Below, one piece after another: positions 3,856 through 17,050 of a stretch of 25,695 nt of DNA. The stretch comes from a virus. The translations under genes were made by a program, and so were the position numbers. How positions within the stretch are numbered: the first letter of the stretch is position 1; each line of letters begins with the position of its first letter. Under the pieces are notes generated by a model that was not told the DNA's origin, did no database searches, and saw only the letters and a program-made list of their open reading frames with translations. The DNA is taken from IMG/VR virus record IMGVR_UViG_3300042691_029660, positions 1 to 25,695 of that record, one strand, 5' to 3'.

Positions 3856-4446
3856 ATGTTTACTTATATGCAAGCAATCTATCAAATACGAAACAAAATA
3901 AATAATAAAATTTATATTGGAAGCACAAACAATATAAATAAACGATGGAATAATCATAAAAGTAAATTAAATAATAAAATACACGAAAATTCATATTTAC
4001 AAGCAGCTTGGGATAAATATGGAGAAGAAAATTTTGAATTTTCTATAATTGAAGAAGTAAATGACCAAAATAGAATAGAAAAAGAAATTTTTTATTTGCA
4101 AGAAACAAAAAGTTACGAAAGAGATATAGGTTATAATTTTGATAAAAATCCTACAGATAAGAGTGGTAAAAACAATCCATTTTATGGAAAACAACATTCA
4201 AAAGAAACTAAAGATAAAATTAAACTAATAGCTAATAATAGAAGTGATGAACTTAAAAATAAAATGGGAGAGAAGAATAGAGGCGAAAATAATAGTTCTG
4301 CTAAATTGAATAAACAAATAGTAGAAGAAATAAGAAACTTATATTCACTTGGTAATGAAACATATAAAAGTTTATCAAGAAAATATGGAGTCGGTAAATC
4401 AACAATACAAGCAATTATAGAATATAAATCTTGGAAGCACATTTGA
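3856..4446 (+). CDS. GIY-YIG homing endonuclease (free-standing)
   Basis: A 196-residue site-specific endonuclease that would cut capsid-region DNA of phages lacking it and so spread its own gene. The GIY-YIG nuclease domain covers residues 7-90: AIY (7-9), KIYIGS (18-23), R30 and H34 in KRWNNH, and E77 in RIEKEIFYLQ as the metal ligand. A NUMOD3 motif (NPFYGKQHSKET, 107-118) and a C-terminal helix-turn-helix (SAKLNKQIVEEIRNLY ... YGVGKSTIQAI, 148-187, ending SWKHI) provide DNA binding. All key residues are present, so it looks active. It is markedly more AT-rich than the capsid gene and has no Shine-Dalgarno at ATG 3856 or at the alternative ATG 3868 (which would begin MQAIYQI). It lies between two terminators, a typical insertion next to a conserved gene. 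Confidence 0.9.
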   Translation: MFTYMQAIYQIRNKINNKIYIGSTNNINKRWNNHKSKLNNKIHENSYLQAAWDKYGEENFEFSIIEEVNDQNRIEKEIFYLQETKSYERDIGYNFDKNPTDKSGKNNPFYGKQHSKETKDKIKLIANNRSDELKNKMGEKNRGENNSSAKLNKQIVEEIRNLYSLGNETYKSLSRKYGVGKSTIQAIIEYKSWKHI

Positions 4447-12811: not shown

Positions 12812-13435
12812 ATGAGTTTAATATGGACAAATGCTGCTCTGGAACCAAAACGCAAGTTTAGATATTTGCTAACATTTGGTAAATTTACTGATGTAAAGTT
12901 TCTTGCACAAACATGTGATCGTCCAGGTCTAAAAGTAGGTGCAACAGAACATAAATATTTTGATAAAACCTATTTTCATCCAGGTCGTGTAACTTGGGAA
13001 CCAAATCCTCTTAGTATTAAATTAGTTGATATACAAAATAAAAACGATCCATTGGGAAGTAGCGGCGTAGATACGAATACAAGCTTATTGTCAATATTTG
13101 CTCAATCAGGTCTTCAATATTTTTCAGCAGATGGTGATTTTAGAACAATCGGTAAGGCAGCCGCCGTTGGTGCTCTTGGCGATGTAAATATCTATGTTTT
13201 AGATTCGCAAACAAATTCAGCAACTGGTGCTTCTCCCGCAGATGACGATTTAAGAATTGGCGCTACATCAGTTTGGGCTGAACATTGGTTACTTAAAAAT
13301 GCATGGCTTGAAAGTATTAAACCAGATAGTTTAGATTATGGAGCAGAAGATATTTTGACTGTTACAATAGCAGTTAGATACGATTTTGCAAAATTTGAAG
13401 ATGCAAAACAAGTTAATCCTTTAAAAGTGACTTGA
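12812..13435 (+). CDS. 19: tail tube protein (gp19-like)
   Basis: A 207-residue protein directly after the sheath, the invariant place of the tube gene in myoviruses. It opens with PKRKFRYLLTFGKF (about 12-25), followed by CDRPGLKVGATEHKYFDKTYFHPGRVTWEP, the gp19 motif in which a strand with ..RP......E.KY......YP...W. leads into the beta-barrel. The C-terminal WLLKNAWLESIKPDSLDYG and LTVTIAVRYDFAKFE (about 158-196) is also typical (the SL.Y.......I.V...YD pattern). T4 gp19 is 163 residues, so this version is slightly longer. The protein polymerises into the inner tube around the tape measure. Confidence 0.88.
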   Translation: MSLIWTNAALEPKRKFRYLLTFGKFTDVKFLAQTCDRPGLKVGATEHKYFDKTYFHPGRVTWEPNPLSIKLVDIQNKNDPLGSSGVDTNTSLLSIFAQSGLQYFSADGDFRTIGKAAAVGALGDVNIYVLDSQTNSATGASPADDDLRIGATSVWAEHWLLKNAWLESIKPDSLDYGAEDILTVTIAVRYDFAKFEDAKQVNPLKVT

Positions 13436-13449
13436 TATAGAGGTGATAA

Positions 13450-14319
13450 ATGAATGATAGAGACAATGAACGTAGACTGCAAATAGCAGGCGAAGATCCA
13501 GTCTCTACAAATATGGTTGCCAGCGGCGGGCTAAAGTCAAAGTTAGACTTAGCCTTTGCCGCTCCAACTCTTTTTGTAGAACTGCCATCAAAAGGCAAGT
13601 ATTATAAAGCAGGAAATGCTTTACATGGAAGAGAAACTTTAGAAATAAAGTTTATGACAGCAAAAGAAGAAGATATTCTTACATCAAAAGCACTTATCAA
13701 AAAAGGCGTTGTTCTTGATCGCCTTCTTGAAAGTGTTATGATAGATAAGTCTGTTAATGTTGGTGATTTATTGGTCGGAGACAGAAATGCTCTGCTTATA
13801 GATGCCAGAATAAGTGGTTTTGGAAGCAAATATATAACAAGCGTTGCTTGTCCTGCTTGCAATACAGTTTCAAAACATACTTTTTTACTTGATGAAAACA
13901 AAAAACTAAGTGATGGAACAATACCAGAACATCTTTGCAATAGTGTAAAGCATATTGAAGATAAAATATTTGCTATTACACTACCACAAACAGGTGTAAC
14001 GGTAAATATTCGTCTTATGACTGGTAATGATGAAAAGGCTGTATTACAAATAAGTGAAGCAAATAAAAATGCTGCTGTTGATAATAGTAATACACAGCAA
14101 CTCAAGTTGCTTATTGAATCTGCTGAAGGTGAGAAGGATAAAAATCTCATATCTAAGTTTGTTGATATTATGCCAGTTCGTGATTCACGATTCTTGAAAG
14201 AAGCATATAAAGCAATAACCCCAAATGTTGATCTAACTCAACACTTTGAATGTAAAGCCTGTGACTACAGTGCGGACATGGAGGTTCCATTCAATTTGGA
14301 ATTTTTTTGGTCTAAGTGA
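13450..14319 (+). CDS. 26: gp26-like baseplate / tail assembly protein
   Basis: A 289-residue member of the family named after T4 baseplate protein gp26. FVELPSKGKYY (42-52), HGRETLEIKFMTAKEEDILTS (split at 59-79), LDRLLESVMID and LLVGDRNALLIDARISGFG (107-125) are characteristic. Two CxxC pairs, C134/C137 and C268/C271, probably bind one zinc ion. The gene lies between the tube and the tape measure, where other long-tailed phages encode tail assembly chaperones. Its end overlaps a small ORF in the +1 frame at a run of seven T (14302-14308), so a frameshifted longer form may be made. Start supported by AGGTG upstream of 13450. Confidence 0.75.
   Translation: MNDRDNERRLQIAGEDPVSTNMVASGGLKSKLDLAFAAPTLFVELPSKGKYYKAGNALHGRETLEIKFMTAKEEDILTSKALIKKGVVLDRLLESVMIDKSVNVGDLLVGDRNALLIDARISGFGSKYITSVACPACNTVSKHTFLLDENKKLSDGTIPEHLCNSVKHIEDKIFAITLPQTGVTVNIRLMTGNDEKAVLQISEANKNAAVDNSNTQQLKLLIESAEGEKDKNLISKFVDIMPVRDSRFLKEAYKAITPNVDLTQHFECKACDYSADMEVPFNLEFFWSK
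14302..14308 (+). other. possible programmed frameshift site (T7 run)
   Basis: In the gp26-like frame the codons are TTT TTT TGG TCT AAG TGA. Skipping one base (+1) or slipping back two (-2) at the T7 run moves ribosomes into the frame of the small downstream ORF (…GGT CTA AGT GAT GAA TAC). The gp26-like stop is only three codons later, and no good start or Shine-Dalgarno exists for the small ORF. Frameshifting is inferred. Confidence 0.4.
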
Positions 14320-14343
14320 TGAATACATTGAAAGTGTATATGA

Positions 14344-14494
14344 GATGTTTTTTGCTTTGAAATATCATGGAGGATGGAGTTTCACAGAAGCCTACAACTT
14401 ACCAATACCAATACGAGACTGGTTTGTCAAGCGTTTGGTGAAGCAAAAGAAAGAAGAAGCAGAGCAAATAGAGAAAGCATCCAGGGGTAAATAA
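14344..14494 (+). CDS. small protein overlapping gp26 (gp51-like position)
   Basis: The frame is open upstream of 14246 to TAA at 14492-14494. The first plausible in-frame ATG after the gp26-like stop is 14344, giving 50 residues (MFFALKYHGGWSF...). However, the preceding in-frame residues (LSDEYIESVYE) look like part of the same helix, so translation may enter from the gp26-like frame at the T7 run instead. The core FFALKYHGGWSFTEAYNLP, then IRDWFVKRL, then a charged helix, is compact and helical. T4 also has a small gene (51, hub assembly catalyst) after gene 26, which supports an assembly role, but sequence identity to gp51 was not established. No Shine-Dalgarno is evident before 14344. 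Confidence 0.6.
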
Positions 14495-14557: not shown

Positions 14558-17050
14558 ATGGCTGAAATAGATGATCTAAAAAAGCGCATAGAAGAACTTG
14601 AAAAGGAAAAAACTTCAAGAAGAACTTCTGAAGAAGCAAATGCTGTTGCTGAAGCAACTCGTCGTGCGGCCATGAGTGCTGAAGACCTAAGTAAAGCCAC
14701 AGAAACTGGCGCACAAAATTATAAAAAAATAGATGAAAATATTAAAACTATAGCAAATAATAAAAAAATAATAATCGATTATGAGCAGATAGAAAGTGAA
14801 CTTGGCGAAGAAAAGCTAAACAGACTAAAAGAAGAGTTTAGAATAAATCAACAAACCTTGTTGCAACTCTTGCAACAACAAAATGGAAGAATAGGCGAAA
14901 ACGAAGAACTTGATAAAAAAATAGAACATCTTGAAAAAATAACAAGATTACAGGGCAAACAGATACAAGATGCCAATAAAGAAAAAGAAATAAAAGAAAA
15001 AACACTTTCAGTTACAAGACAACTTGGAGAAGAACTAAAGAAACAAGTAGAAAATACAGAAAAACATATCATAGAACTTAGCAAGCTAACTGGCGGTTAT
15101 GAAGGTATGTTTGGCATGGTTTCAGAAGCATCAGCACTTATTGCCGCAAATACTCTTGCGACTGGCATAACCATTGAGCAAGGAAGAAAGGCATTTAGTG
15201 CATTAGCAACTGACTTTTTGAATCTTCGTTCATATGGTGCTGATGCAGCGGCAAATATGTCTGTTGTTGCAGCACAAATGGAAAAAGTAGGTATAAGTGG
15301 ACAAATAGCAGGAAAAACATTTGATAGCCTTGTCAATGCAATGGGCAAAACTCCTGTTCAAGCAGGAAAGATACAAGAAAGTTTTGTTCAAATGGCTGCT
15401 AAAAATCGTCTCGCTCTCAACTCAGTAACACAAGCATTTGGCGAAAATTCAAGCCGTTTTGTAGGCTATGGCGAACAAATGACAAAAGTTCTTGATGGAC
15501 TTGCAGAACAGTCTTTACAAACCGGTATTGCAATAGGAAAACTTGTTGGAATAGCACAAGGTTTTGATACATTTGAAGATGCCAGCAGAAAAGTTGGCAA
15601 TCTAAATGCGCTTCTTGGTGGAGATTATTTTAATAGTATAGAGTTATTGACTGCTAGCGATGAAGAAAGAATAAAAATTCTAAAAGAAGGCATTGCTGCA
15701 AGTGGAATACAATTTGAAAGCATGAATCGTTTAGAAAAAATGGCTATTGCTAACGCTGCTGGTATTAGCGATCTAAACGAAGCATCAAAACTATTTGGTC
15801 AAACATCGCTACAAAATACAAAACAACAAGCAGAAGCAGCAGAAGTTCAAAAAACACTTGCCGAACAAGCACAAAGTGCAAGTTTAGCAATGGATAAATT
15901 GAGAAGTATGTTCAATGGACTTATTATAGCAATACAACCAATAACAACTGCTCTTATGTTTATGGTTGATATATTGTCCAAAGTTGTTCAAGGAATAAAT
16001 TCTGTTGCAGAAACTTTCACAGGAAGTAGTAAGGCAGCAGCACTTATAACATCTTCTTTGGTTCTTGTAATATATCGTTTTAGTGTTCTTGGTAGAGTGA
16101 TTGGTTTTGTTGCCAAGGGTATAATGGGTAGTTTAGTATCTGCTTTTAGTTCTCTTACTGCTTCTGCTCCTGCTGCTGGTGCTTCTGTTGGTGGTGCTAT
16201 AGAAACAGTAGGTAAGGCGGCGAAATCCGTAACTAAAGAGATACTTTACCTTGGAGGTGCAATATTTTTAATTGGCGCTGGCATAGGTATTGCAGCACTT
16301 GGTTTTTCTAAACTTGTTCTTGCCTTCAAAGAACTTGGTAGCGAGCAAGCATCATCCGCAATGTGGTCTATTATTGCAATAATGACTGGATTTACAATAA
16401 TGGTTGTTTCACTTGCAGCAGTTGCTTATTTTGCCACACCTGCCATAGCCGGATTAGCAGGTGCTTTTTTGGCTCTTGGTGGCGCTGTTGCTCTTATTGG
16501 TGCTGGCATAGGTATTGCTGCGGCAGGTATTGGTTATATGGTGGATAATATGGCTGATCTTGTTGATTCTTTTTCTAAACTAAATGCAGATGAAGTAGGT
16601 AAGTTTACTTCTCTTTTCTCCGATGAAAATATAAAACAAGTTGAAAAGTTTGCCGAAGCAATAAGCAAACTAAACGATCCATTCAATACTCTCAATAATA
16701 ACTTGAAGTCTATTGTAACAAATCTTACTACAATGGTTCCCGATATGAGCCTACAAGTATCTGCTACTCCTGTAAGTTTAGCAACTGCTGCAGCAGGTTT
16801 AGAATCAGTTACAAATACAACAAACTCTGTAATAAACAATACAAGAAATACTTCAGCACAAACTCTTATACCAGCACAACAAACAACTGCTTTTGTTCCT
16901 CTTGTTGTTCAAATAGATAAAAAAACAATAATAGAAATATTAAAAGAAGATGTAAAGAACATTGCTAAAGGTGAAGCACTTGATACTCTTGATGCAGTTG
17001 GTGTAACTCAATCAGCATTTTATGCTATAAACAGAGTTTCAAATCCATAA
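14558..17050 (+). CDS. tail tape measure protein
   Basis: An 830-residue protein that sets tail length and is ejected ahead of the DNA. Residues 1-20 and about 75-175 are charged coiled coil. Residues 175-420 form an Ala/Gly-rich helical region with TMP-type sequence (GYEGMFGMVSEASALIAANTL). Hydrophobic, probably membrane-inserting stretches are at about 450-475, 493-530, 560-590 and 602-660, including two near copies of GAGIGIAA. The C-terminal tail is Thr/Asn-rich. T4's tape measure (gp29) has 590 residues; at roughly 0.15 nm per residue this one would fit a tail of about 120 nm (estimate). The tube, gp26-like and baseplate neighbours fit. The Shine-Dalgarno (GGGAA) is weak. Confidence 0.85.
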   Translation: MAEIDDLKKRIEELEKEKTSRRTSEEANAVAEATRRAAMSAEDLSKATETGAQNYKKIDENIKTIANNKKIIIDYEQIESELGEEKLNRLKEEFRINQQTLLQLLQQQNGRIGENEELDKKIEHLEKITRLQGKQIQDANKEKEIKEKTLSVTRQLGEELKKQVENTEKHIIELSKLTGGYEGMFGMVSEASALIAANTLATGITIEQGRKAFSALATDFLNLRSYGADAAANMSVVAAQMEKVGISGQIAGKTFDSLVNAMGKTPVQAGKIQESFVQMAAKNRLALNSVTQAFGENSSRFVGYGEQMTKVLDGLAEQSLQTGIAIGKLVGIAQGFDTFEDASRKVGNLNALLGGDYFNSIELLTASDEERIKILKEGIAASGIQFESMNRLEKMAIANAAGISDLNEASKLFGQTSLQNTKQQAEAAEVQKTLAEQAQSASLAMDKLRSMFNGLIIAIQPITTALMFMVDILSKVVQGINSVAETFTGSSKAAALITSSLVLVIYRFSVLGRVIGFVAKGIMGSLVSAFSSLTASAPAAGASVGGAIETVGKAAKSVTKEILYLGGAIFLIGAGIGIAALGFSKLVLAFKELGSEQASSAMWSIIAIMTGFTIMVVSLAAVAYFATPAIAGLAGAFLALGGAVALIGAGIGIAAAGIGYMVDNMADLVDSFSKLNADEVGKFTSLFSDENIKQVEKFAEAISKLNDPFNTLNNNLKSIVTNLTTMVPDMSLQVSATPVSLATAAAGLESVTNTTNSVINNTRNTSAQTLIPAQQTTAFVPLVVQIDKKTIIEILKEDVKNIAKGEALDTLDAVGVTQSAFYAINRVSNP

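Follow-up and report, generated by a model that had tools for sequence, protein, structure and literature searches.

A predicted +1 frameshift joining gp26 to a gp51-type extension in a clade of T4-superfamily phages

When a phage tail gene stops a few codons beyond a run of seven T residues, and a second reading frame with no good start continues from that run, is the second frame a gene of its own or the end of the first? The locus that raises this question lies in a 25.7-kb IMG/VR virus fragment (25,695 nt; this whole stretch is referred to here as the window), in which a gp26-like gene is placed between tail tube and probable tape measure genes. A sequence-only reading had proposed that a programmed frameshift joins the gp26-like gene to the small ORF behind it. 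Comparison of 159 loci, a peak of synonymous constraint and coding in the +1 frame support that proposal, and we put the probability that a programmed frameshift joins gp26 to a gp51-type extension at about 0.9.

All features described in the window are on the plus strand. The gp26-like gene (13450–14319) would, read without a shift, give a short product of 289 residues, the analogue of TAC-N or lambda G; the protein matches Pfam PF12322 (T4_baseplate; E 4e-11, 43.4 bits, above the cut-off of 24.5) and PHROG 150 (baseplate hub). Immediately upstream is a tail tube gene (12812–13435; PHROG 4542, E 7e-17) and immediately downstream a gene for an 830-residue protein (14558–17050), probably the tape measure as judged from a weak PHROG match (5493, E 0.004) and from its position, which equals that of the annotated tape measure genes of Flavobacterium phage immuto, LIS04 and SP-15. 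The sequence-only reading had likewise put the small ORF right before the tape measure, as in tail chaperone pairs, and this agrees with the placement and the weak PHROG match.

The gp26 frame ends GAA TTT TTT TGG TCT AAG TGA, with the T7 run at 14302–14308 and the stop codon at 14317–14319, so that the gene does close a few codons past the run as first described. The candidate +1 slip site, TTT_TTT_TGG (14302–14310), is marked out by its conservation, by synonymous constraint and by avoidance of T on its 5′ side. Behind it the zero-frame tail TCT AAG TGA (14311–14319), which ends in the gp26 stop, would be a dual-coding overlap, as suggested by the sequence and by constraint on a CCT codon in relatives. 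In the +1 frame the run is followed by GGT CTA AGT GAT GAA TAC (GLSDEY...), and this extension (14309–14494) continues for 61 codons from the GGT to a stop at 14492–14494. A chain of homology, the codon-position pattern and a weak match to PHROG 634 (‘baseplate hub assembly catalyst’, E 0.005) point to a gp51 C-terminal-type domain. The ORF listed at 14246–14494 sits in the +1 frame of gp26, and its TTG start is inside gp26, 5′ of the slip, and not conserved; of the interval first proposed, the slip run and the extension stand, and 14246–14308 is simply open in the +1 frame.

An IMG/VR search with the window gp26-like protein gave 80 relatives (40–98% identity), and a second search with gp26 of Microcystis phage Mel-JY01 gave 80 more, of which 78 were readable through the gp26 stop. 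Throughout the window family (81/81 loci, the window and its 80 relatives), a (T/C)TT_T step lies three to four codons 5′ of the gp26 stop; the slip is exactly TTTTTTTGG in 76 of these loci, the window counted, and in all 80 relatives the small ORF follows in the +1 frame, starting GL at the slip. The same slip and extension layout was found in 78/78 readable Mel-JY01-family loci (73 TTTTTTTGG, three CTTTTTTGG and two TTTTTTTAC), and UUU_U or CUU_U is common to all 159 loci of the two families. The sequence-only reading had looked to the T7 run and the overlap for conservation; the (U/C)UU_U step and the +1 extension proved to be universal, but the T7 run is broken in some members.

A +1-frame extension preceded by a candidate slip is also present in Streptococcus phage vB_SagM-GXN1 (TTC_TTT_CGT), LIS04 (TTT_TTT_AGT), SP-15 (TTT_TTT_CAC) and LR756508 (TTT_CTA). 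The junction is arranged differently in LR756511, and a viral-contig search with SP-15 gp26 gave no match besides SP-15 itself. The GXN1 site (locus L085, ~4190–4229) contains, in a phage, UUU_CGU, the +1 motif of influenza PA-X and amalgaviruses; in influenza PA-X the +1 shift has been mapped at UUU_C within UUU_CGU (PMC3498833).

Synonymous change was tested along the whole gp26 gene in five-codon steps between neighbouring pairs of sequences; neighbouring pairs on the clustering order were treated as independent, so that common ancestry exaggerates the z values. Gene medians were near zero. The strongest constraint of the entire gene in the window family fell on EFFWP (13 changes seen vs 84.4 expected, kinship-inflated z 10.5) and in the Mel-JY01 family on FFWPD (2 vs 66.5, z 10.1, likewise inflated), while cyanophages showed a lesser peak at their slip (z 6.0, inflated in the same way). 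The Pro codon CCT that follows Trp in relatives had no synonymous changes against 28.6 and 27.8 expected in the two families; it never changes synonymously, as would be expected if its third base, T, also serves as the middle base of a Leu codon in the +1 frame. Immediately 5′ of the run, a T occurs in only 1/63 window-family and 0/59 Mel-JY01-family sequences, although T makes up 34–36% of third bases, and the window-family Asp codon just before the run is GAC 28 times and GAT once, against 71% GAT elsewhere. This avoidance of T leaves no U_UUU_UUU heptamer for a −1 shift.

The sequence-only reading had allowed a shift of either +1 or −2, and the variants in these families favor the first. 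Shifting by −2, as phage Mu does, would enter the same frame with one extra Phe, and in most members the T6 or T7 run would permit Phe-tRNA to re-pair on the UUU two bases back. At TTC_TTT_TGG, however (loci L011–L013 and L069), a −2 shift would need re-pairing on UCU, and TTT_CTT_TGG (L052, phage immuto) would also mispair. Both variants can re-pair at +1, as UUU in the first and as a prfB-type CUU→UUU in the second, so that a +1 slip by a single tRNA fits them. If frameshifting occurs, it is therefore very probably +1, and we consider −2 shifting unlikely.

Less likely again is independent translation of the small ORF, through its own initiation or through termination-reinitiation at the gp26 stop. 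There is some precedent for this in annotation, since S-PM2 gp51 was given an ATG just past the gp26 stop, and in some relatives an ATG or TTG close to the slip is preceded by an SD-like GAGGT. The conserved extension protein begins at the slip, however, ahead of the window’s first in-frame ATG at 14345, which comes after GLSDEYIESVYE and has no Shine-Dalgarno sequence before it in the window. ATG, GTG and TTG are all absent before extension codon 5 in 11/63, 22/59 and 18/47 non-redundant homologues of the window, Mel-JY01 and cyanophage families, respectively, and even within the first 20 extension codons no start codon exists in three members of one +1 family and 12 of the other. Initiation at an ORF-specific start would also leave the synonymous freeze on UUU_UUU and CCU unexplained. 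These findings bear out two points of the sequence-only reading, that the small ORF lacks a good start and Shine-Dalgarno sequence and that its coding begins before the first convenient ATG; homologues with an ATG and Shine-Dalgarno sequence of their own, which would have spoken against a fusion, are not the rule. A possible start codon preceded by an SD-like sequence was seen in 14/63 window-family relatives, so that low-level separate initiation might occur there, and certain relatives may use an own start to a minor extent. Coding in the +1 frame was apparent in the pattern of change as well: pairwise differences among the extensions of the window and 14 close relatives numbered 210/54/1566 on +1-frame codon positions 1, 2 and 3. 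Comparison across loci thus documents the layout, its conservation and coding in the +1 frame from the predicted slip.

Transcriptional slippage on the T7 run, giving mRNAs one base shorter or two longer, is very improbable. Seven T residues in an AT-rich gene form the kind of homopolymer it would use, but the run is broken to four T (TTCTTTTGG) or three (TTTCTTTGG) in members that keep the extension, and the finding that only (U/C)UU_U is universal argues against it. Homopolymer runs are error-prone on some sequencing platforms, but an assembly or sequencing error that split one gene in two can be dismissed, as the frame relation is identical across 159 contigs drawn from many metagenomes, and cultured phages with finished genomes show it too.

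The preferred reading, a +1 shift, would proceed as follows. Most ribosomes would read the gp26-like frame to the stop at 14317–14319 and release the short chaperone of 289 residues. At TTT_TTT_TGG some would hold Phe-tRNA on the second UUU in the P site with the Trp codon UGG waiting in the A site; the P-site tRNA would slip one base forward and re-pair with the overlapping UUU, making GGU (Gly) the next codon. Translation would then stay in the +1 frame for 61 codons and end at 14494, yielding a long product of 347 residues in which gp26 is joined to a gp51-type helical domain and whose +1 junction peptide would cross FNLEFFGLSDEYIESVYE. Ribosomes most likely slip here in vivo; this, and the rate at which they would do so, we infer from the sequences.

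Elements that might stimulate the shift were sought on both sides of the slip. Upstream, an SD-like GGAGGT (14280–14285) includes the Glu codon GAG (14281–14283), which in the window family only shows no synonymous changes against 18.3 expected (kinship-inflated z 5.4). This sequence is a possible pausing element, at ~19 nt from the P-site slip codon and so beyond the usual range of known stimulators. Downstream, no RNA structure was detected next to the slip in the +1 families, either by single-sequence z-scores (means −0.2 to −0.65) or by RNAalifold on ungapped alignments of the site.

What the extension is becomes clear through intermediates. Profile comparison linked the extensions of the window and Mel-JY01 families (99.4%), the Mel-JY01-family extension and cyanophage gp51 (96.3%), and cyanophage gp51 and the C-terminus of T4 gp51 (columns 201–253; 94.6%); direct comparison of the window-family extension with the T4 gp51 family was not significant, and the intermediates were needed. 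Across the whole T4 genome the extension matches nothing but the end of gene 51 (E 1e-3); Campylobacter phage CP220 has its match in the long gp26 paralogue (E 1e-8). T4 gp51 consists of a gp26-family N-terminal part with the extension in frame. The sequence-only reading was thus correct that T4 genes 26 and 51 are separate, to which can be added that gp51 is itself a gp26-family protein. Short and long products would in each case share their N-terminal part: the predicted fusion does so, and in T4 gp51 and the long form of CP220 the two parts lie in one frame. By this chain, comparison extends to homology between the predicted long product and T4 gp51.

Structure models hint at a chaperone role. 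Window gp26 and a T4-like gp51 were modelled apart. The AlphaFold model of window gp26 had a pLDDT of 90.4; that of the T4-like gp51 (pLDDT 83; 63–72 in the extension) resembles it in how strands and helices succeed one another and has three extra helices at 206–248. Among PDB chains aligned to the window gp26 model with VIA-align, the first was YqbN (3klu; Z 5.2 over 83 residues, 3.3 Å) and the second HK97 gp13 (2ob9; Z 4.6 over 86 residues, 4.7 Å), followed by a chain at 2.7; these are weak matches, and a Z below 8 can reflect a common arrangement and is no proof of a shared fold. YqbN and HK97 gp13 are both tail assembly chaperones (PMC9603447), which makes the likeness suggestive. Comparing the fusion profile with the sequences of solved structures gave nothing credible. 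Both T4 gp26 and T4 gp51 are counted among hub assembly chaperones, and the T4 particle does not contain gp51 (PMC3004832). Since gp26 and gp51 are of one family, the extension matches the gp51 C-terminus, and the gp26 fold weakly resembles chaperones, short and long chaperones made from one gene are the most likely interpretation, and we regard a tail assembly chaperone role of the predicted products as probable. If the pair works like lambda G/GT, the short form would act as a coat for the tape measure protein, and the long form, the rarer of the two, would bring in the tube subunits.

Relatives outside these families appear to reach the same two products by a shift in the opposite direction. 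In 47 non-redundant cyanophage gp26 genes an invariant T_TTT_TTC precedes the stop by one codon, and the −1 frame contains the gp51 ORF; the 5′ T of this U_UUU_UUC site is present in 47/47. A stem-loop lies ~9–12 nt 3′ of the slip (mean dinucleotide z −2.4, 25 sequences), and together T_TTT_TTC and the stem-loop form what looks like a textbook −1 signal, predicted to fuse gp26 to the annotated gp51 (loci L177–L256, e.g., L197:2706–2767). The stem-loop sequence differs between clades. The 5′ end of gp26 in these cyanophages also carries strong synonymous constraint, at ALPKI (z 6.3, kinship-inflated), possibly a translation-start or RNA element. KVP40, HTVC008M, pf16, phiM12 and phiW14 have −1 layouts comparable to that of the cyanophages. 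Aeromonas phage Aeh1, in which gp51 was reported missing (PMC3037559), would on the frameshift reading be expected to have an extension in a shifted frame, and one is present: on the minus strand its gene reads GAT TTT TTC GAC TGA and is followed by a −1-frame extension. Aeh1 and ACP17 were checked as a forward test, and both fit the −1 layout. Two Ackermannviridae, Salmonella phage Vi01 and Aeromonas phage phiA8-29, likewise show an extension in the −1 frame where gp26 stops, but their slips differ (ATT_TTC and CTT_TTC) and are not X_XXY_YYZ heptamers.

Across these phages, the extension lies in a shifted frame where the genome has one PF12322 ORF; where it has two (T4, CP220), the second copy includes it in frame. 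A tree of 96 proteins unites the 70 +1 sequences in a single clade (support 1.0) and pairs T4 gp26 with T4 gp51 as sisters (0.77), close to KVP40 and Aeh1. The CP220 ORFs lie apart from the T4 pair, so that their duplication may be independent. A single change of shift direction suffices on this tree. We think it fairly likely that the tail chaperone gene of the T4 superfamily makes the same two products by a −1 shift, by a +1 shift or by duplication, the direction having changed once, at the base of the window’s clade, in which case a single homologous gene would record a natural reversal of frameshift direction.

Parts of this picture have been described before. Vladimirov, Gautam and Davidson are credited with identifying the tail chaperones of T4-like phages in 2022 (Virology 566:9), the two-gene solution of some T4-like phages is attributed to them (PMC10885494), and a second paper citing them treats poly-T −1 signals in T4-like TAC-N genes as established (PMC12846349); on those accounts the identity of the gene and its −1 sites are already known. 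We found no description of the +1 clade in open papers, and the clade with predicted +1 shifting, a mirror of the −1 sites in cyanophages, KVP40 and Aeh1, looks new. The frameshift reading would correct the gene calls of immuto, SP-15, LIS04 and Mel-JY01, in which the extension is missing, truncated or a separate ORF, and it would account for the missing gp51 of Aeh1. It would also explain a published oddity, that cyanophage and marine vibriophage gp51 are without the first ~200 residues (Sullivan et al. 2010; PMC3037559), in the case of the cyanophages. According to a 2016 review, G–T frameshifting is widely conserved ‘except T4’ (PMC5009743), and this exception would narrow to phages with a duplicated gene. 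With homologous −1 and +1 sites at hand, the determinants of shift direction become testable by swapping few bases.

As with lambda G/GT (TAC-N and TAC-NC), a single gene before the tape measure would give a short and a C-terminally extended product through a frameshift near its 3′ end; lambda shifts −1, however, and the window gene is predicted to shift +1 on UUU_UUU_UGG, and its proteins belong to the gp26/PF12322 family and match the folds of known chaperones only weakly. A phage tail-gene frameshift other than −1 would be a feature shared with Mu and with the Listeria phages PSA, A118 and A500. The Listeria +1 sites, CCC_UGA, lie within the gene for the major tail protein, and Mu shifts −2. 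The +1 shifts in the tail genes of those three Listeria phages are an established case (PMC5009743). The predicted slip recalls prfB (RF2), where a P-site CUU, like UUU here, moves one base onto an overlapping U at a slow A-site codon. In prfB the A site holds a stop codon and an SD lies close upstream, whereas the window has UGG in the A site and no SD established at that spacing. The prfB site is CUU_U, where UUU and CCC reportedly rank next in slipperiness as P-site codons (PMC10885494). T4 shares with the window a gp26 of the same Pfam family and a gp51 with the same C-terminal extension, but makes short and long forms from two paralogous genes without a frameshift, where the window has one gene. 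Further parallels, in cyanophages, KVP40, Aeh1, pf16 and ACP17, are homologous gene pairs with a Phe-codon slip just before the gp26 stop; these −1 relatives would slip on U_UUU_UU(C/U), with a 3′ stem-loop in cyanophages, whereas the window’s clade would shift +1 at a site where a 5′ U is avoided and no structure was detected on the 3′ side.
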